This document shows positions 37,917 through 48,321 of a DNA stretch of 64,000 bases, in pieces; position 1 is the first letter of the stretch, and every line of letters starts with the position of its first letter. This stretch comes from Geminocystis herdmanii PCC 6308 (lineage in GTDB: Bacteria > Cyanobacteriota > Cyanobacteriia > Cyanobacteriales > Cyanobacteriaceae): NCBI RefSeq assembly GCF_000332235.1, contig NZ_CM001775.1, forward strand, positions 3,954,272 to 4,018,271. The letters run 5' to 3'. Made by a program: the position numbers and the translations under genes. The notes under the pieces were generated by a model. It searched no databases and was not told where the DNA came from. It was given only the letters and a program-made list of their open reading frames with translations.

Positions 37917-38657
37917 ATGACATCTTCTCTGACTTTAACCCCCGTTACCGAAAACAAACTTGATACTTGTCATGAGATAATATATCCTCAAGGAGAGTTT
38001 TGGAGTGACGAACCACCATTGGAAACTTATCAACATTTACAACAAATTATTATCTTACTCAAATCCTTACAATGGTTGTGGCAGGATAAAAACGACTATT
38101 TTTGTGCCGGTAATTTAACTATTTATTATAGTCCCAATCAAAAAAAATCAGAGTATTTTCGAGGACCAGATTTTTTCGTAGTCTTAAATACGACTAATGA
38201 TGAAACTCGCAAAAGTTGGGTAGTGTGGGAAGAAGGGGGAAAATATCCTAACGTCATAGTAGAAATCTTATCGGATAGTACTGCTAAATTCGATCGAACT
38301 GAAAAAAAAGAGATTTATCAGGATATATTTAGAACACCAGATTATTTTTGGTTCGATCCTTTTACCTTAGAATTTCAAGGATTTACCTTAATTAGTGGCA
38401 CATATCAACCGATTCCCTCCAATGAACAAGGGTGGTTATATTCAGAACAATTAGAGTTATATTTAGGGTTACATGAGGGAAAATTGCGTTACTTTACTCC
38501 TGACGGTGAATTAGTTTCCACTCCCGAAGAATCTGCTATTCAAGAAAAACAAAAGGCACAAGTAGCCGAAAATCTCGCTCTTCAAGAAAGACAAAAAGTC
38601 GATAAATTAGCACAAAAATTAAGGGAATTAGGGATTAACCCTGATGAAATTATCTAA
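37917..38657 (+). CDS. Uma2 family protein, tandem copy 1
   Basis: The 246-residue protein has the nuclease-fold pattern GPDFFVVLN (Asp), NVIVEILSDSTAKFD (Glu) and KKEIYQDIFRTPDYFWFDP (Lys), followed by QGFTLISGTYQPI and a charged coiled-coil tail ending KLRELGINPDEII. It is nearly identical to the next two proteins over residues 20-200. Its 49-base leader, ending in AAAAATGTAAGTT before the ATG, is repeated before copy 2. Function of Uma2 is not established. Confidence 0.88.
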   Translation: MTSSLTLTPVTENKLDTCHEIIYPQGEFWSDEPPLETYQHLQQIIILLKSLQWLWQDKNDYFCAGNLTIYYSPNQKKSEYFRGPDFFVVLNTTNDETRKSWVVWEEGGKYPNVIVEILSDSTAKFDRTEKKEIYQDIFRTPDYFWFDPFTLEFQGFTLISGTYQPIPSNEQGWLYSEQLELYLGLHEGKLRYFTPDGELVSTPEESAIQEKQKAQVAENLALQERQKVDKLAQKLRELGINPDEII

Positions 38658-38723
38658 ATCTATTTAGGAGTTTTAAATATAATAAAAGTTATGATAGAAA
38701 GAAATTTACCAAAAATGTAAGTT

Positions 38724-39527
38724 ATGACATCTTCCCTGACTTTAACTCCCGTTACAGAAAACAAACTTGATACTTGCCATGAGATAATATATCCTCAAGG
38801 AGAGTTTTGGAGTGACGAGCCACCATTGGAAACTTATCAACATCTACAACAAATTATTATCTTACTCAAATCCTTACAGTGGTTGTGGCAAGATAAAAAT
38901 GATTATTTTTGTGCCGGTAATTTAACCATTTATTACAGTCCAAATCAAAAGAAATCAGAGTATTTTCGAGGACCAGATTTTTTCGTAGTCTTAAACACTG
39001 ACAATGATGAAACTCGTAAAAGTTGGGTAGTGTGGGAAGAAGGGGGAAAATATCCTAACGTCATAGTAGAAATCTTATCGGATAGTACTGCTAAGTTCGA
39101 TAGGGAAGGTAAAAAAGCTATTTATCAGGATATATTTAGAACACCAGATTATTTTTGGTTCGATCCTTTTACCTTAGAATTTCAAGGATTTACCTTAATT
39201 AGTGGTACATATCAAGCTATAACTCCTAATGAACAAGGTTGGTTATATTCAGAACAATTAGAGTTATATTTAGGGTTACATGAGGGTAAATTGCGTTACT
39301 TTACCCTTAATGGTGAATTAGTGGCTACTCCTGAAGAATCTGCTACTCAAGAAAAACAACAAGTCCAAATTGAACGTCAACAAAAAGAATATGAAAGACA
39401 ACAAGCTCAAATTGAGCGTCAACAAAAAGAATATGAAAGACAACAAAAAGACTTAGCTTTACAAGAAATTATACAATTAAAAGAGAAATTGAAACAATTA
39501 GGTATCAATCCCGATGATTTAATTTAA
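38724..39527 (+). CDS. Uma2 family protein, tandem copy 2
   Basis: A 267-residue paralogue of copy 1 with the same first 180 residues apart from a few changes (for example FDREGKKAIYQD in place of FDRTEKKEIYQD). The C-terminal coiled coil is longer through repeats of QIERQQKEYERQQ. The distance between the leaders of copies 1 and 2 is about 808 bases, the size of one duplication unit. All putative catalytic residues are kept, so it could be active. Confidence 0.88.
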   Translation: MTSSLTLTPVTENKLDTCHEIIYPQGEFWSDEPPLETYQHLQQIIILLKSLQWLWQDKNDYFCAGNLTIYYSPNQKKSEYFRGPDFFVVLNTDNDETRKSWVVWEEGGKYPNVIVEILSDSTAKFDREGKKAIYQDIFRTPDYFWFDPFTLEFQGFTLISGTYQAITPNEQGWLYSEQLELYLGLHEGKLRYFTLNGELVATPEESATQEKQQVQIERQQKEYERQQAQIERQQKEYERQQKDLALQEIIQLKEKLKQLGINPDDLI

Positions 39528-39587
39528 ACACTATTAATTCTTGTTTTACAATGTTCATAAGCTAATTATTTATTATCAGGTGATATT

Positions 39588-40292
39588 ATGTCAACTCAAA
39601 TTCTTATACCACCAGAAGTTACCAAAAATGAGATAATATATCCTCAAGGAGAGTTTTGGAGTGATGAACCACCATTGGAAACTTATCAACATTTACAACA
39701 AATTATTATCTTACTCAAATCCTTACAGTGGTTATGGCAAGATAAAAAGGATTATTTTTGTGCCGGTAATTTAACTATTTATTATAGTCCCAATCAAAAA
39801 AAATCAGAGTATTTTCGAGGACCAGATTTTTTCGTAGTCTTAAACACTGACAATGATGAAACTCGCAAAAGTTGGGTAGTGTGGGAAGAAGGGGGAAAAT
39901 ATCCTAATGTTATAGTGGAAATCTTATCGGATAGTACTGCTAAATTCGATCACGAAGTGGCGCTGCGCGATCGATCTGGAAAAAAAGAGATTTATCAGGA
40001 TATATTTAGAACACCAGATTATTTTTGGTTCGATCCTTTTACCTTAGAATTTCAAGGATTTACCCTCATTAGTGGCACATATCAAGCTATAACTCCTAAT
40101 GAACAAGGGTGGTTATATTCAGAGCAATTAGAGTTATATTTAGGGTTACATGAGGGTAAATTGCGTTACTTTACTCCTGACGGTGAATTAGTTTCCACTC
40201 CCGAAGAATCTGCTATTCAAGAAAGACAAAAGGCAGATAAATTAGCACAAAAACTAAGGGAATTAGGCATTAATCCTGATGATATTGTGTGA
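39588..40292 (+). CDS. Uma2 family protein, tandem copy 3
   Basis: A 234-residue paralogue with a different N-terminus (MSTQILIPPEVTKN, then the shared EIIYPQGEFWSDEPPLETY). Between the catalytic Glu and Lys it has a ten-residue insertion (HEVALRDRSG after KFD) that copies 1 and 2 lack, encoded by a sequence with GCGCTGCGCGATCGATC, a HIP1-like motif. This lengthens the loop next to the active-site lysine and may disturb activity. Zds follows after 143 bases. Confidence 0.87.
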   Translation: MSTQILIPPEVTKNEIIYPQGEFWSDEPPLETYQHLQQIIILLKSLQWLWQDKKDYFCAGNLTIYYSPNQKKSEYFRGPDFFVVLNTDNDETRKSWVVWEEGGKYPNVIVEILSDSTAKFDHEVALRDRSGKKEIYQDIFRTPDYFWFDPFTLEFQGFTLISGTYQAITPNEQGWLYSEQLELYLGLHEGKLRYFTPDGELVSTPEESAIQERQKADKLAQKLRELGINPDDIV

Positions 40293-40434: not shown

Positions 40435-41886
40435 ATGCGAGTTGCCATCGTGGGTGCAGGATTAGCAGGATTAGCCACCGCCATTGATTTAGTTGACGCT
40501 GGTTGGGATGTCGAAATATTTGAATCTCGCCCTTTTGTGGGAGGTAAGGTGGGCAGTTGGGTTGACAGTGACGGTAATCATATCGAGATGGGTTTACACG
40601 TCTTTTTTGGTTGCTATTACAATCTTTTTGCTTTAATGGAGAAAGTAGGTGCGATCGATAACTTAAGATTAAAACAACATACCCATACCTTTATCAACGA
40701 AGGGGGTAGAGTGGGAGAATTAGACTTTCGTTTCATCACGGGCGCACCCTTCAATGGTTTAAAAGCCTTTTTCACCACCTCTCAACTATCGGCGGTGGAT
40801 AAAATCGCCAACTCTTTAGCTTTAGGCACAAGCCCCATTGTACGAGGTTTAATCGATTTTGAAGGGGCAATGCGCAATATTCGAGCCTTAGACGGCATTA
40901 GTTTTGCTGACTGGTTTCGTAAACACGGAGGTAATCAAGGAAGTCTTGATAAAATGTGGAATCCCATTGCTTATGCTTTAGGGTTTATCGACACGGAAAA
41001 TATTTCTGCCCGTTGTATGTTAACCATTTTCCAATTTTTTGCGGCAAAAACTGAAGCCTCTGTATTGCGAATGTTAGAAGGCTCACCCCATGAATATTTA
41101 CATAAACCCATCGTTAACTACTTAGAATCCAAAGGAGTAAAAATCCATACCCGTCGCCAAGTGAGAGAAATTCAGTATCGAGAAGGAGAAGAAACCCTCG
41201 TCACTGGTTTATTAGTCGCCAAAGGAGACACAGAAGAATTAATTACCGCAGATGCTTATGTTTGTGCCTGTGACATACCCGGTATTCAAAAAGTTATCCC
41301 TCAAGGTTGGCGTAAATGGAAGGAATTTGATAACATCTATAAATTGACTGCTGTACCAGTAGCGACAGTTCAGCTACGTTTTGATGGTTGGGTGACGGAA
41401 TTAGAAGACGAGGAAAAACGTAAACAGTTAGAAAAAGCTGAAGGTATCGATAACTTACTTTATACTTGTGATGCCGACTTCTCTTGTTTTTCTGATTTAG
41501 CCTTATCTAGCCCTGCGGATTATTATCGAAAAGGGGAAGGTTCTCTGTTACAATTAGTGTTGACTCCGGGTGATCCTTTTATTAAGGAAAGTAATGAAAA
41601 TATCGCTAACCATGTGTTAAAACAAGTTCATAAGTTATTCCCTTCTTCCCGTGACTTAAATATGACTTGGTATAGTGTGGTTAAATTAGCTCAATCCCTT
41701 TACAGAGAAGCACCGGGCATGGATGTTTACCGCCCTTCACAAAAGACTCCTATCTCTAATTTTTTCTTAGCAGGTAGTTATACTCAACAAGATTATATCG
41801 ATAGTATGGAAGGTGCAACCATTTCGGGTAAACAAGCTGCCCAAACAATTCTGAAATCTCATACAAAAGTATTAGCTATTAAATAA
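40435..41886 (+). CDS. zds: Zeta-carotene desaturase (plant type)
   Basis: The 483-residue FAD enzyme (CrtQ) desaturates 9,9'-di-cis-zeta-carotene to prolycopene on the way to beta-carotene. The N-terminal dinucleotide motif [17 protein letters not shown], the [14 protein letters not shown] block, [11 protein letters not shown] and the C-terminal FAD signature [20 protein letters not shown] are typical of the CrtP/CrtQ type. Length is normal. The promoter region is duplicated upstream of the Uma2 cluster. The hairpin at 41915-41931 follows. Confidence 0.96.
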
Positions 41887-41953: not shown

Positions 41954-42751
41954 CTATTGATTTTGACGGAATTGTTTTTCCACTCCGTTGACGATTAATT
42001 CCCTAGGGAAAAAGCGACTGAGATTAACAACAATTTGATTACCAATGCCTCCTGTAACTACGTTTGCTTGAGATTTTTCTAAGGCTGAAAGGGCATCTTT
42101 TACCACGTCTTCAGCTTTGGCTAGGGCATTTTTGTTGCTGTCTTCCATACCGGGGAAATTGGTAAATTCTGCTACTTCAGGAAATTTCGATTCCGTTGGA
42201 CCGGGACAAAGTGCTAATATTTTGATACCATAAGTTTTATATTCTGCCCATAATGCCTCTGAAAATGACAAAACAAAGGCTTTGGTAGCGGCATATACAG
42301 ATAAATAAGGTAAAGGTTGATAACCTGCGATCGAGCCTACATTGATAATCTCTCCCCTACCTTGAGATTTCATTTCCGTTAAGAATAAGTAGGTTAACTC
42401 CACTAATGCAGTGATATTTAGCTGTATCATGTCTAACTGTTTTTGTAAGACTCGATCGGTAAATCTACCATAATCTCCAAAACCGGCATTGTTGATTAAT
42501 AAGTCAACAAAAATATTATCTTGTTTGACTTGATTAAAAACGATTTCTCCTGCGCCAGAAACCGTTAAATCTTGACAAATTACTTTAACTTTGATGGCAT
42601 ATTGAGATTCTAATTTCTCTTTTAATTCTACTAATAAAGAGTTCGATCGAGCCACAATAATTAAATTATAATTGCGTTGGGCTAATTCTTCTGCAAAAGC
42701 CTTGCCAATACCAGAAGAAGCGCCAGTTATTAATGCTGTTTTCATCATCAA
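41954..42751 (-). CDS. Short-chain dehydrogenase/reductase
   Basis: The 265-residue protein has the classical SDR pattern: cofactor loop ITGASSGIGKA near residue 8, NNAGFGDYG near 88, Ser in NVGSIAGYQP, and the catalytic YAATK near 154. Asp or Arg residues after the second strand (VARSN) point to NADP(H). It resembles the broad DltE/YqjQ-like SDR group; the substrate is unknown. ATG codons at 42751, 42748 and 42745 are all possible starts. Confidence 0.85.
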   Translation of the reverse strand: MMMKTALITGASSGIGKAFAEELAQRNYNLIIVARSNSLLVELKEKLESQYAIKVKVICQDLTVSGAGEIVFNQVKQDNIFVDLLINNAGFGDYGRFTDRVLQKQLDMIQLNITALVELTYLFLTEMKSQGRGEIINVGSIAGYQPLPYLSVYAATKAFVLSFSEALWAEYKTYGIKILALCPGPTESKFPEVAEFTNFPGMEDSNKNALAKAEDVVKDALSALEKSQANVVTGGIGNQIVVNLSRFFPRELIVNGVEKQFRQNQ

Positions 42752-42808
42752 ATTATTTATTAGGGTGTTAGGGAATAGGGAATAGGGAATAATTTTTAAT
42801 TTTTAATT

Positions 42809-42840
42809 CTCCATTCTCCATTCTCCATTCTCCATTATTA
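42809..42840. repeat. CTCCATT heptamer repeat touching a stop codon
   Basis: Four units (42809-42836) end one base before the TTA (42838-42840) that is the stop codon of the minus-strand coiled-coil gene. Confidence 0.85.
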
Positions 42841-43968
42841 TTTCCCTTTTTGTTGATTTTTAGCTTGTTCTAAAGCGACTTCTTTCATTGCTTCAAAAGA
42901 GTTACGATTTGATGTTCCTTCAATAGCTTTTATGGCTAAATCTTGGACTTGTTTTAAGGCAGAATCAAGTTGTTGAGATAAAGAATTAAGGCGATTTTCA
43001 TTACTTAAAATAGTGGATTCTAAAGCCTGTATTCTGAGTTGATAATTTTGAGTTTCTCCATCAATTTCTTTATGTCTTAAATCAGCTTTTACCTTAGCTT
43101 GATAGTTACCTATTCCTTTGCCTTCCTCTTTAGCTTTTTTCACTTCATTTTCTAATTTTGCTTCAAATTCTGCAACTTTTTGTTTTGCTTCACCATATTC
43201 TTTTTCTTTCTCACTAATGACTTTTTCTCTTTCTTCCCAAATTTTTTCCTGTTGTTTTTTCGCTTCTTCTAAGTCTTTGTATAATTGAGTTAATTCTTGT
43301 TCATAATTTTCTCGATCGAGCTGTCGAGTTAATTGTAAATTATAGTTATACTCTTCATTTTCTCGCTGTTTATTTTTAGTATAAATATCGTTACGTTGTT
43401 TAACTTCTCTTTGCTTATTTTCCTGCTCTTTTGCCCACTCTTTTTTAGCAGTTAAGAGTTGCTCCCCTAAAGTTTCTTGTTGTTGACTATATTCATCAGA
43501 AAAATTTTTTTGACTTTCTTCATAGGTAGTTAATAAAGTTAATAAAGTATCTTCTTCAACACTTTCTAAATCATGCAATTCTTGCAGTTGATTAACTTCT
43601 AACTCAATATCATTTTCTAACTTTTCTAAGGCGGAGGCTTCCGTAATTAATTGCTCAGAAAGTTGACTAACCGCACTACCAAAACCAACTTGCAATTTTT
43701 CTAAACTAGCAATAATTTGCTCAATATTATTCATAGATGTAATGGAAGATTTAATAGGGATATTTGAGATATTTTCAATGGATTTAGGTGTAATTTGTAC
43801 AGGGGAATTAGTTACCATAGTTTTGGCATTTTCAACAGCTTTTTGTTGTACTTGAGCTTGTTTTTGAACTAAAGTAATTTCTTTTTCTAACTTAGCCTTT
43901 TCCTGTTGTAATTCTTGATAAGCCTCTAAAATTTGGGCTTTGGTACTTTTAGAATTTACTGTTGTCAT
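42838..43968 (-). CDS. Coiled-coil protein A of an XRE-linked locus
   Basis: No named family recognised. The 376-residue protein is almost all coiled coil: residues 1-40 (STKAQILEAYQELQQEKAKL), a linker with Pro and Ile to about 75, then IIASLEKLQVGFGSAVSQLS and further helices, a central KQRENEEYNYNLQLTRQLDR block, and an end SALKQVQDLAIKAIEGTSN. It is homologous along its whole length to the upstream protein B: both share TK-x-QI at the start, Y-x-LQ-x-x-R in the centre, W-x-ERE, and Q-x-LA at the end. No catalytic motif. It lies 39 bases after gene B, forming an operon transcribed away from the XRE gene. Filament or scaffold formation is inference. Confidence 0.7.
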   Translation of the reverse strand: MTTVNSKSTKAQILEAYQELQQEKAKLEKEITLVQKQAQVQQKAVENAKTMVTNSPVQITPKSIENISNIPIKSSITSMNNIEQIIASLEKLQVGFGSAVSQLSEQLITEASALEKLENDIELEVNQLQELHDLESVEEDTLLTLLTTYEESQKNFSDEYSQQQETLGEQLLTAKKEWAKEQENKQREVKQRNDIYTKNKQRENEEYNYNLQLTRQLDRENYEQELTQLYKDLEEAKKQQEKIWEEREKVISEKEKEYGEAKQKVAEFEAKLENEVKKAKEEGKGIGNYQAKVKADLRHKEIDGETQNYQLRIQALESTILSNENRLNSLSQQLDSALKQVQDLAIKAIEGTSNRNSFEAMKEVALEQAKNQQKGK

Positions 43969-44007
43969 ATTTTACCTCTAAAATTTTAATTATTTACTCT
44001 ATTTACT

Positions 44008-44988
44008 TTAATTATTATTAGGTTGAAATGCTCTTAAAGCTAAGTTTTGAGCTTGATTTGTTACCTCTTTTAATTGAGTAATAATTTCTTCAATTTGCTG
44101 GTTTTGTTGCTGAATTTTTGCTTCTAAAGACTGCATTTTGAAGTCATAACCTTGTTTTGCAGACTCCCACTCTTTTTCTATTAGATTAGCCTTAATTTGT
44201 GCTTCTCGATCGGCTTCTTTAATTGCTTCACTACGAGCTTTATTTACTTCGGTTTTAATTTGTTCATCAAACCCTGCAATTTTCTCTTGATTTTGAGTAA
44301 ATTCTGCTTCTTGATTAGCCAAAATATTTTCTCTTTCTTTCCATAGTTTATTTTTATCCACATTAGCTAAAGTTAGCTCTCTTTCTTGGAGTCTTTTCCC
44401 TTCTTCATATTCATCCATTTCTATTTTTCTGTCTATCTGTAATTGATAGGTAAAATCAGCTTCTAACTGTTGTCTTTGTTGAGTTAGTAAAGCAGATTCT
44501 TCAGCAATTTTTAAGTCAAATTCTGTTTGTTCTTTTTCCCATTCTTTGCGATATTTTTCTTGTTGTTTAGCAATATCATCTAAGGCATTTTGAGTCGAAT
44601 TTTCAAGGGTTTTAATTCTCTCTTGATGTTCTTGTCTGAGAATATATAAAGCATCCGCAACTAAACGAACTTTTTGCAATTCTGTCAACTTTTCTTGTTC
44701 AACAATAATCGCTTTTTTTAGTTCCGTTAAAACATCTGATTCACTCTCTAATCGATTAGCGATTTCTTTGGTTAAATTACTAAAATCTAACTGTAAAGTT
44801 GCCATACTATTAACAATATTATTAACAGTATAATCAGCAACTTTGGCTAACAAAGCCTTATTTTTTTCCTTCTCAACGGCTTCCTCTTTTGTCTCAATTT
44901 TCGACTCTTGTTGTTGATACTCTACAACTAACTTCCCGAAGGCAGACATTATTTGTTCTTTGGTTTCTCGTATCTGTGTTTGACTCAT
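44008..44988 (-). CDS. Coiled-coil protein B of an XRE-linked locus
   Basis: The 326-residue paralogue of protein A starts SQTQIRETKEQIMSAFGKLV and consists of coiled coil, with NNIVNSMATLQLDFSNLTKE, DFTYQLQIDRKIEMDEYEEG, LWKERENILANQEAEF and the end NQAQNLALRAFQPNNN. It is about 50 residues shorter than A. The gene is the first of the operon; its start (44988) faces the XRE gene across 101 bases containing three identical operator-like sites, one of which lies 11 bases from its start. I would expect repression or autoregulation by the XRE protein. Function unknown. Confidence 0.7.
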   Translation of the reverse strand: MSQTQIRETKEQIMSAFGKLVVEYQQQESKIETKEEAVEKEKNKALLAKVADYTVNNIVNSMATLQLDFSNLTKEIANRLESESDVLTELKKAIIVEQEKLTELQKVRLVADALYILRQEHQERIKTLENSTQNALDDIAKQQEKYRKEWEKEQTEFDLKIAEESALLTQQRQQLEADFTYQLQIDRKIEMDEYEEGKRLQERELTLANVDKNKLWKERENILANQEAEFTQNQEKIAGFDEQIKTEVNKARSEAIKEADREAQIKANLIEKEWESAKQGYDFKMQSLEAKIQQQNQQIEEIITQLKEVTNQAQNLALRAFQPNNN

Positions 44989-44998
44989 AACAGTAAAC

Positions 44999-45079
44999 TT
45001 GACTTTTTATTCAACATGATATTATCATCATAACTAATGTTGATTTTTTCGTCAACAAAAATGTTGATTTTTTATTCAA
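44999..45079. promoter_or_regulatory. Three TTGA-N8-TCAA operator-like sites
   Basis: The 101-base space between the divergent genes contains TTGA-N8-TCAA at 44999-45014, 45040-45055 and 45064-45079, the middle one extended to TGTTGA-N8-TCAACA. All spacers are T-rich. Centre distances are 41 and 24 bases. Dyads of this size fit binding by a dimeric XRE helix-turn-helix protein, whose gene starts at 45090. Confidence 0.7.
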
Positions 45080-45089
45080 GTTAGGAAAA

Positions 45090-45437
45090 ATGGAAGAAAC
45101 AATAACTTTTGGCAGTGTGATTAAAGAAGCCAGAAAGAAAAATGGTTACAGTCAAAGGGATTTGGCGCAGATATTAGGTATCGATTATAGTTACCTGTCG
45201 AAGTTGGAAAATAATCGAGGAGAATACGCTCCCAAGGAGGATTTAATTCGTTATATGGCTTTATATTTGGAGTTAGATGAGGAGGAGTTGATTTTTTTAG
45301 CGGGAAGGATTCCTGCGGAAGATGAAGATTTGATTAAGCAACACTATCAAAATATGCCGTTACTTTTTCGCAGAATGCGGGAAAATCCAGAGTTTGCAGC
45401 GAAGATTTTTCAACAAGCCCAAGAATCTGATCATTGA
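45090..45437 (+). CDS. XRE-family helix-turn-helix regulator
   Basis: The 115-residue protein has an N-terminal HTH_3 domain (residues 8-66): FGSVIKEARKKNGYSQRDLA, then QILGIDYSYLSKLENNRGEY, and LIRYMALYLELDEEELIFLA. The remaining 45 residues are helical and may mediate dimer contacts. It is encoded divergently from the two coiled-coil proteins, with three dyad sites between, so it probably controls that operon and itself. The hairpin at 45471-45498 may end its transcript. Confidence 0.9.
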   Translation: MEETITFGSVIKEARKKNGYSQRDLAQILGIDYSYLSKLENNRGEYAPKEDLIRYMALYLELDEEELIFLAGRIPAEDEDLIKQHYQNMPLLFRRMRENPEFAAKIFQQAQESDH

Positions 45438-45470
45438 GGAGTAAAGGATTTCGACAGTCTGTTAACCCTT

Positions 45471-45498
45471 ATTCTCCTCTCCCATAGGAGACGAGAAT
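45471..45498 (+). terminator. Hairpin after the XRE gene
   Basis: ATTCTC-C-TCTCC, loop CATA, GGAGA-C-GAGAAT: an eleven-pair stem with one symmetric mismatch. A short TTTA follows. Similar GGGAGA-type hairpins occur elsewhere, including within cobN, so it is also a dispersed element. Confidence 0.45.
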
Positions 45499-45518
45499 TT
45501 AATGAATTTGACATAAAA

Positions 45519-45561
45519 AAAATAGATGATGAATAACTTGGAAGATTCCGAAGACAGGAAG
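45519..45561. repeat. 43-bp dispersed repeat, copy 2 (inverted)
   Basis: Matches 33851-33893 in opposite orientation over about 43 bases, including GATGATGAAT and TTCCGAAGACA. Confidence 0.75.
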
Positions 45562-45573
45562 ACTCCGAAGAGA

Positions 45574-45816
45574 GCTACTCCTGATTTATGGTATTATTAT
45601 CGATAACTACCATCCCACATTCAAGACCTTGCTGATAAATGTTATGATTTATTAAAAGAAAATCTCTATTATCCCTCATTATACTTGAAGAAGGTAGGAC
45701 GTTTTTAAACGGTTAGAATTGGCATTCATTATAAAGCTATTGCCATCGAAGATGGACAAGATATTGCTTGGTTTTGGATTGAACATCATGCAGAATATGA
45801 CAAAATATTAGGGTGA
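45574..45816 (+). pseudogene. HigB/RelE-like toxin remnant with two stops
   Basis: One frame reads TPDLWYYYR, stop (TAA 45604-45606), LPSHIQDLADKCYDLLKENL and YPSLYLKKVGRF, stop (TAA 45706-45708), then TVRIGIHYKAIAIEDGQDIA and WFWIEHHAEYDKIL, TGA 45814-45816. This is the pattern of small RelE/HigB-like toxins, with a Trp or Gln codon expected at each stop. The start is missing, replaced by the 43-base repeat. At 45819 an ATG opens ten codons (MKTQPFRYE) before a stop: a possible stub of the antitoxin start. The pair is dead. Confidence 0.75.
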
Positions 45817-45840
45817 TAATGAAAACCCAACCTTTTCGAT

Positions 45841-48321
45841 ATGAATAAGATAGATAATAATTTCGACTGGCAAAGAATCGCAAAATCTTTAGAAATAGAA
45901 AAAGAATTTGGTTATAAAAATATTCAAGGAAAACAATATCGCTTCAATGAATTTTTATGCTTAACTTTTGGTAATGTACCCCCTGTTAACAATTTATTAA
46001 TCGCTTTTAAATGGCAAAAAATTGCTAAACAATATGCTATTTATCCTCAATTAACTTTACAGGAAAGAATCGATTTAATTAAGAATACAGAAATTTTAAT
46101 TACGGAAATTCAAGCGAAACAAGATAATAATTTTCAAAGTTATGAAACTCCCCCAGTCATCGAACAAAAAATTATTAAAAACACTGAAATAAAAACTGTT
46201 AATACTCCTAAGAAGAATATCACCTTAGATGATCCTGTGATTAATTTAGAGAGTATCTTTTATAAACAAAAAGAACCTTTGATGAAATTAGGTCTTTATA
46301 AAGTTAGAGATTTATTGTTTTATTATCCTAGGGATCATATTGATTATACCCGTAAAGTGAACATTTGTGATTTAGAACCAGGGGAAACTGTTACCCTCAT
46401 AGGTAAAGTCAAAAAATGTGATTGTTTTAGTAGTCCAAAAAATAAAAAATTAACGATTCTTAATATAATTATTAAAGATCAAACTGGAGAGTTAAAACTT
46501 AATCGTTTTTATGCTGGAAATTATTATAGTAATCGAGGTTGGCAGGAAAAAATGAAACGGATGTACCCTAGTGGTGCACTAATTGCGGTTTCGGGTTTAG
46601 TTAAGGAAAATAAATACGGTATCACCCTTGATAATCCTGAGTTTGAGGTGTTAGACAGTCACGGCGATAATATTAATTCCTTCAAAATTGGTAGTTTATT
46701 GCCTGTTTATCCTTTAACGGAAGGTATCCCTGCGGATGTGATTCGTAAGGGAGTAATGGAGGCTATCCCCTTGTTAAAACACATTGATGATCCTTTACCT
46801 GCTATACTTAAACAACAGTACGACTTGATTGATTTACAACGGGCTATCGCACAAATACATTACCCTGAAGATCAAGAAATATTAAGTCATGCGAGAAGAA
46901 GACTAATTTTCGATGAATTTTTCTATCTTCAACTAGGCTTTTTAAACCGTAAACAACAGGAAAAAGAAAGCCGTCAAGCGGTAGCTTTTACCCCCCATGG
47001 GCAACTAATTGAGCAGTTTAACCAGATTTTACCCTTTAAGTTGACTAACGCCCAAAAACGAGTTATCAATGAAATTGAGCAGGATTTACAATCGGATTCT
47101 CCGATGAATCGCCTTGTACAAGGAGATGTAGGTTCAGGAAAAACGATCGTAGCTGTATTTGCTCTTTTGACGGCGTTACAATCAGGCTATCAGGGGGCAT
47201 TGATGGCGCCCACAGAGGTTTTAGCAGAACAACATTACAGGAAGATAGTAGAGTGGTTTAATCTTCTCCATTTACCCGTAGAATTGCTTACGGGGTCAAC
47301 AAAGATGGCTAAACGGAGGGAGATACACGCCCAACTCCAAAGTGGAGAATTACCCCTTTTAATCGGCACTCATGCTTTAATTCAAGACCCTGTAAACTTT
47401 TGTAATCTAGGGTTGGTTGTCATCGATGAGCAACATAGATTCGGAGTGCAACAACGATCGAGATTACTGGCGAAAGGGAAAGCACCTCATGTGTTAACCA
47501 TGACGGCGACACCGATTCCTCGCACCCTTGCCTTAACGTTACATGGTGATTTGGATGTGAGTCAAATTGACGAGTTACCCCCCGGCAGACAACCGATTCA
47601 AACTACGGCTTTGACGGGAAAGGAGCGCCTCCAAGCCTATGATTTAATTAAGCGAGAAGTGGCACAAGGAAGACAGGCTTATGTGATTTTTCCCATGATT
47701 GAAGAATCAGAAAAGCTAGACGTGAAGGCGGCTGTAGCCGAGCATCAAAAATTTAGTGACAAAATTTTCCCTGATTTTAATGTGGGTTTACTTCATGGTA
47801 GGATGAGTTCGATCGAAAAGGAAACAGCTTTAAACGGCTTTCGGGATAACGATATACAAATTATTGTTTCTACCACCGTTATCGAGGTTGGGGTAGATGT
47901 ACCTAATGCGACAGTTATGTTGATCGAAAATGCCGAGAGGTTTGGCTTGTCGCAACTGCATCAGCTAAGGGGGAGAGTTGGTAGGGGAAGTCATAAATCT
48001 TACTGCTTGTTAATTAGTGGTAGTAAAACAGGGGATGCCATGCAGAGATTAAGTGTTTTAGAACAATCACAAGACGGTTTCTTTATTTCGGAGATGGATT
48101 TGCGTTTAAGAGGGCCGGGTGAAGTATTAGGTAGTCGTCAATCTGGTTTACCAGACTTTGCTTTAGCTAGTTTAGTGGAAGATCAAGAAGTGTTAGTATT
48201 AGCTAGGGAAGCGGCCGAAAAAATCCTTTTACAGCATAAATATTTAAAAGATACTCCCTCTTTAAAAGATGAATTAGAGAGACGTTATAAAAAGTTAATT
48301 GGTACGCAAATTTTAATGTAA
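45841..48321 (+). CDS. recG: ATP-dependent DNA helicase RecG
   Basis: The 826-residue helicase remodels stalled forks and Holliday junctions. Residues about 1-135 are a cyanobacterial N-terminal extension. The wedge/OB domain follows (YYPRDHIDYTRKV near 160; VTLIGKVKKC). Helicase motifs: Walker A GDVGSGKT, DExH as DEQHRFG, MTATPIPRTLALT, ending in VIENAERFGLSQLHQLRGRV and GRG. Length is normal for cyanobacterial RecG. The start at 45841 lies directly after toxin-antitoxin debris. A palindrome and hairpin follow the stop. Confidence 0.96.
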   Translation: MNKIDNNFDWQRIAKSLEIEKEFGYKNIQGKQYRFNEFLCLTFGNVPPVNNLLIAFKWQKIAKQYAIYPQLTLQERIDLIKNTEILITEIQAKQDNNFQSYETPPVIEQKIIKNTEIKTVNTPKKNITLDDPVINLESIFYKQKEPLMKLGLYKVRDLLFYYPRDHIDYTRKVNICDLEPGETVTLIGKVKKCDCFSSPKNKKLTILNIIIKDQTGELKLNRFYAGNYYSNRGWQEKMKRMYPSGALIAVSGLVKENKYGITLDNPEFEVLDSHGDNINSFKIGSLLPVYPLTEGIPADVIRKGVMEAIPLLKHIDDPLPAILKQQYDLIDLQRAIAQIHYPEDQEILSHARRRLIFDEFFYLQLGFLNRKQQEKESRQAVAFTPHGQLIEQFNQILPFKLTNAQKRVINEIEQDLQSDSPMNRLVQGDVGSGKTIVAVFALLTALQSGYQGALMAPTEVLAEQHYRKIVEWFNLLHLPVELLTGSTKMAKRREIHAQLQSGELPLLIGTHALIQDPVNFCNLGLVVIDEQHRFGVQQRSRLLAKGKAPHVLTMTATPIPRTLALTLHGDLDVSQIDELPPGRQPIQTTALTGKERLQAYDLIKREVAQGRQAYVIFPMIEESEKLDVKAAVAEHQKFSDKIFPDFNVGLLHGRMSSIEKETALNGFRDNDIQIIVSTTVIEVGVDVPNATVMLIENAERFGLSQLHQLRGRVGRGSHKSYCLLISGSKTGDAMQRLSVLEQSQDGFFISEMDLRLRGPGEVLGSRQSGLPDFALASLVEDQEVLVLAREAAEKILLQHKYLKDTPSLKDELERRYKKLIGTQILM

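Follow-up and report, generated by a model that had tools for sequence, protein, structure and literature searches.

The window analyzed here, a 64,000-nucleotide stretch of Geminocystis herdmanii PCC 6308 that belongs to one contig of 4.26 Mb, carries two adjacent genes for coiled-coil proteins (hereafter A and B) and, on the opposite strand, a gene for an XRE-family repressor. It is likely that A and B are a co-assembling pair of the ZicK/ZacK type under this dedicated repressor, and that in most relatives an M78 protease releases the pair from repression under stress. The ZicK/ZacK pair as such is already known, whereas the conserved promoter–operator architecture and the connection with an XRE(-M78) switch are new. 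An earlier preliminary description of this DNA had delimited the same three ORFs, and our coordinates agree with it (Table 1).

Table 1 Genes and predicted regulatory sites of the A–B/XRE locus in the window
Feature	Position	Strand	Remarks
Coiled-coil protein B, 376 aa (ZacK-like by gene order)	42838-43968	-	Shares 47-50% identity with the second member of the Nostocaceae pair; AF2 model
Coiled-coil protein A, 326 aa (ZicK-like by gene order, as it leads the pair)	44008-44988	-	Orthologous and in tandem in 61/61 loci; shares 41-42% identity with the first member of the sphR-linked Nostocaceae pair
Operator-like palindrome TTGACTTTTTATTCAA	44999-45014	.	Contains the -35 box of the XRE promoter
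XRE promoter-like site TTGACT-18 nt-TATCAT	44999-45028	+	Back to back with the A–B promoter
A–B promoter-like site TTGACG-17 nt-TATGAT	45027-45055	-	Same geometry at 26/26 operator pairs
Operator-like palindrome TTGATTTTTTCGTCAA	45040-45055	.	Reverse complement begins with TTGACG, the -35 box of the A–B promoter
Third operator-like palindrome TTGATTTTTTATTCAA	45064-45079	.	Between the A–B -35 box and the XRE start codon
XRE-family repressor, 115 aa, N-terminal helix-turn-helix and three C-terminal helices	45090-45437	+	HTH_19/HTH_3 matches; AF2 model

A and B could be aligned over 284 residues with 28% identity (E = 1e-27). When one profile was made from 61 A proteins and one from 61 B proteins, each matched the other set from end to end (E = 1e-26 to 1e-71). 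These reciprocal matches indicate that A and B are true homologues rather than a coincidence of low-complexity sequence, in agreement with the earlier proposal that they are full-length paralogues derived from a duplication. Pfam and NCBIfam contained no family for A or B, returning only noise below the threshold, and a search of positions 42000–46500 against Rfam detected no RNA. The AF2 model of B consists of an N-terminal helix (residues 6–49), a disordered linker, a single helix of 271 residues (80–350) predicted mostly with high confidence, and a short C-terminal helix. The long α-helical rod of the ZicK/ZacK type was thus recognized, from the model of B alone, and the predicted head–rod–tail layout is what would be expected of an intermediate-filament-like protein, which is no proof of polymerization. 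A fold search with the B model against a viral fold library gave no match, as is expected for a single long helix. Elsewhere in the window, three tandem paralogous ORFs of 234 to 267 aa (family f14; positions 37917–40292), which we take to resemble Uma2-type proteins, lie upstream of a carotenoid-desaturase-like gene (40435–41886).

Co-occurrence and gene order, the check that the preliminary description had proposed, were surveyed in 61 loci. A and B were in tandem on the same strand in all of them, with A leading and a median gap of 70 bp, and the XRE gene was linked to the pair in 28. Matches to B were found in 130 of 196 sampled genomes of the order, nearly all with exactly two per genome; in a sample of 244 genomes from the phylum, all 42 genomes with a match belonged to this same order, some of them with short remnants only. 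Short B-type remnants were located at L163:8474-8794, where the remnant adjoins a probable XRE gene, and in five genomes (G224, G255, G128, G509, and G100), which suggests gene decay in some lineages. When the 196 genomes were assigned to classes by hand and irrespective of kinship, 85 carried A–B and XRE, 39 A–B alone, 19 XRE alone, and 53 neither (p = 1e-8). The XRE gene is absent from Nostocaceae that retain A–B, indicating that it is not obligatory for the pair.

The A and B profiles both detected gp268 of Bacillus phage G (phrog_29668; L200:4001-5029), with 27% identity over 359 aa (profile E = 2.5e-31). Judged from these alignments, gp268 is a genuine distant member of the A/B family: it has a similar length and N-terminal motif, but it is a single gene in a jumbo phage. 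In a tree rooted on gp268, all 61 A proteins grouped together with a support of 0.996, and all 61 B proteins formed a second, weakly supported clade (0.50). The duplication that gave A and B thus probably preceded the diversification of the order. The membership of gp268, and the presence of XRE–ImmA pairs in many bacteria and bacteriophages (PMC7907104), would fit a domesticated module of a phage or integrative element, in which an ImmR-like repressor and phage-type structural or cytoskeletal genes were kept by the host. However, no phage other than phage G gave a match in a search of 50,697 records, and viral contigs queried with the B alignment or gp268 yielded no further phage homologue. 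Moreover, no phage hallmark genes were seen beside the pair, and the tree agrees with a single ancient duplication that predates the diversification of the cyanobacterial order. We therefore regard such an origin as very unlikely.

The identity of the pair is best seen from gene order. In nine loci, mostly of Nostocaceae (L057, L058, L061, L071, L079, and L159–L162), the pair is divergent from genes for SphR–SphS–PhoU (response regulator, histidine kinase, and PhoU protein), and in several of these HisA lies downstream; window A and B correspond to the first and second genes of these pairs, respectively, at the identities given in Table 1. In Nostoc 7120, sphR, sphS, and phoU are all4503, all4502, and all4501 (PMC7564538). 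Because these three genes adjoin the pair in Nostocaceae, the place of the pair is that of alr4504–alr4505. We take alr4504 and alr4505 of Anabaena 7120 to be ZicK and ZacK. Window A and B would accordingly be unicellular-cyanobacterial orthologues of ZicK and ZacK, matched through synteny, with the Alr4504 and Alr4505 sequences themselves outside the comparison. Like ZicK and ZacK, they are encoded by two adjacent paralogous coiled-coil-rich genes on the same strand, an arrangement kept in 61 of 61 loci, and their orthologues hold the ZicK/ZacK position in Nostocaceae. The locus had been described as unnamed, which proves to be mistaken for a pair of the ZicK/ZacK type with a role described in Anabaena; the statement that no known family is recognizable is true of Pfam and NCBIfam but, given the match by synteny, wrong in substance.

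ZicK and ZacK are reported to be strictly interdependent, to form a heteropolymer, and to be tied to the shape of the Anabaena trichome (PMC7766704). Expression of alr4504 and alr4505 increases ~4-fold and ~20-fold, respectively, with BMAA, and the genes are under NtcA (PMC8147232). Geminocystis is unicellular whereas Anabaena is multicellular, so a role in the trichome is impossible for the window pair. With no trichome to stabilize, and given that sequence cannot reveal filament formation, A and B could instead serve as a scaffold or tether that forms no filaments, such as an adaptor linked to the membrane or nucleoid, and resemble ZicK/ZacK at the family level only. The orthologous positions and the obligatory pairing nevertheless fit the reported requirement of the ZicK/ZacK polymer for two subunits (PMC7766704), and we consider a non-filamentous function quite unlikely compared with a co-assembling pair.

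Regulation also sets the window pair apart from ZicK/ZacK, since an XRE repressor is linked to it, while neither XRE nor operators are present in the Nostocaceae loci. In five Nostocaceae loci without XRE operators (L061, L159, L160, L161, and L162), an NtcA-like box, GTAN8TAC, was observed 48 to 57 bp upstream of the A start codon. In the window, three TTGA-N8-TCAA palindromes are found within 81 bp between A and XRE (44999–45079). A pair of these palindromes, 34 to 43 bp apart, is present upstream of A in 26 loci; in all 26 it overlaps the -35 box of the A promoter, and the promoter reading toward A has a spacing of 17 or 18 nt in every one of them. The A–B and XRE promoters were both recognizable in 17 of the 26 loci, compared with 2% when the middle part was shuffled. 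The promoter assignment rests on this conservation across loci and not on a scan, because promoter and terminator counts across the region were not above the shuffled background. Where small genes lie between XRE and A (e.g., L048, L050, L051, and L064), the operators sit before the first small gene, and the layout of operators and promoters is conserved across the order. Predicted palindromic operators thus cover the target promoter, as in systems of the CapH/CapP and DdrO/IrrE type.

At loci with no XRE gene next to the pair, operators were found upstream of A in 8 of 8 cases with an operator-type XRE elsewhere versus 1 of 25 others (Fisher p = 6e-7), the 25 being loci with no XRE found, unknown XRE status, or an Argonaute-linked XRE only, with all classes assigned by hand and phylogeny ignored. 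Among four congeners, the A–B/XRE promoter is the only multi-site palindrome cluster common to all, which supports a role of the XRE protein as a dedicated regulator of A–B. The window genome contains further intergenic clusters of two or three palindrome copies (G000:C1:3232951-3233047, 3236890-3236935, and 3300893-3300998; L002, L093, and L004). A wider regulon based on these three clusters was considered and dropped; since the congeners lack them and one lies between convergent genes, we regard them as lineage-specific intergenic repeats or decoys. Three small protein families with no confident Pfam match (~90–160, 230–280, and 70–136 aa) are encoded between XRE and A (L048, L050, L051, L064, L067, L070, and L054) or adjoin XRE together with a CBS-domain histidine kinase, and genes of these families also occur near XRE in the absence of A–B (L169, L177, L178, and L180). 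It is possible that these families are further targets of the repressor.

The XRE protein matched HTH_19 and HTH_3 (E = 8e-12), confirming the earlier assignment of the opposite-strand gene, as well as capH of PADLOC (2.6e-8). Its AF2 model contains eight helices, of which three are extra and C-terminal, a helical domain that is also present in repressors of the CapH/CapP and DdrO/IrrE type; Foldseek matches included SinR, DdrO (full length), ImmR, and CapH, all with E > 0.001. An M78 (ImmA/IrrE) ORF follows on the 3′ side of the XRE gene, on the same strand, in 49 loci and within 32 bp in 45 of these. HExxH is present in 48 of 48 M78 ORFs and a downstream Cys-Arg in 47 of 48, and the M78 proteins of the relatives matched capP of PADLOC (1.8e-18). 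No M78 protease was found in the window or in any of the five genomes of the genus, although 49 related loci carry one. Because an M78 protease gene comes next after XRE in most relatives, the switch resembles CapH/CapP or DdrO/IrrE.

As in CapH/CapP, the relatives encode an XRE repressor and an M78 protease in one operon, the two proteins match capH and capP, respectively, and the HEIGH motif and downstream Cys-Arg of M78 are conserved; by contrast, the target here is a coiled-coil pair and not CBASS, and M78 is missing from the window genus. With DdrO/IrrE of Deinococcus, the window locus shares an XRE protein with a helical C-terminal part, DdrO (6rnx) being among the top full-length fold matches (E = 0.003), but the window XRE has a single dedicated multi-site target in the genus, and the M78 proteins of the relatives are shorter than IrrE. 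The operator motif of DdrO presumably also differs from the window palindromes. In Anabaena 7120, the gene for NsrX, likewise a cyanobacterial XRE regulator, is followed by that for the IrrE-domain metalloprotease Alr1977, a likeness of gene arrangement; NsrX is described there as a secondary regulator of nitrogen genes, and alr4504 and alr4505 are not mentioned (PMC12584617).

The scores against capH and capP could also point to an accessory module for anti-phage or stress defense, in which XRE(-M78) senses DNA damage or phage and frees A–B, whose polymer then blocks or isolates the invader. At nine loci (L175, L176, L185, L186, L190, L192, L193, L195, and L196), genes for a class II prokaryotic Argonaute and for a Cas4-like nuclease do lie beside a related XRE–M78 pair, sometimes accompanied by an MMADHC-like ORF. 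However, the Argonaute-linked XREs form separate branches and mostly lack the TTGA-N8-TCAA operator, and neither A nor B matched any defense protein in PADLOC. In addition, the genes around A–B differ between genera and include no recurrent defense genes, and the pair occurs in most genomes of the order, unlike patchy defense islands. A defense function is therefore unlikely, and the accessory defense module suggested in the preliminary description finds no direct support, its sole echo being the Argonaute-flanking pairs.

For a ZicK/ZacK-type pair under an XRE repressor, we infer the following mechanism. A and B, as interdependent intermediate-filament-like coiled-coil proteins, would co-assemble into a cytoplasmic polymer or scaffold. 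An XRE dimer would bind the TTGA-N8-TCAA palindromes that overlap the two -35 boxes of the bidirectional promoter, and would in this way silence A–B and the XRE gene at once. DdrO is cleaved by IrrE under oxidative stress (PMC7907104), and CapH is cleaved by CapP upon ssDNA activation (PMC13273310); by analogy, stress would release A–B. In most relatives, the M78 protease would inactivate XRE on a stress signal and filament production would be released, whereas in Geminocystis, where M78 would have been lost, another signal must act. The filament is probably made only once such a signal lifts repression. Of the earlier idea of a two-component filament under dedicated control, the ZicK/ZacK-type pair, the linked XRE, and the conserved candidate operators have been borne out, while filament formation itself is what we infer.

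ZicK/ZacK is reported to stabilize the linear trichome of Anabaena. That unicellular relatives possess this pair, with a repressor and operators of its own, suggests that the first job of the filament was a different one, possibly under stress, and that multicellularity was a later use of a ZicK/ZacK-type filament. Tentatively, the ancestral job of ZicK/ZacK across cyanobacteria may have been a stress-induced cytoskeletal response under an XRE/M78-type repressor, predating the shape of the multicellular trichome and later rewired to NtcA, a view that we hold with some doubt. The locus offers a defined regulator and a defined, predicted 16-bp operator, and it suggests that XRE–M78 switches, which are known for DNA repair and phage defense, may also be able to control a cytoskeletal element.
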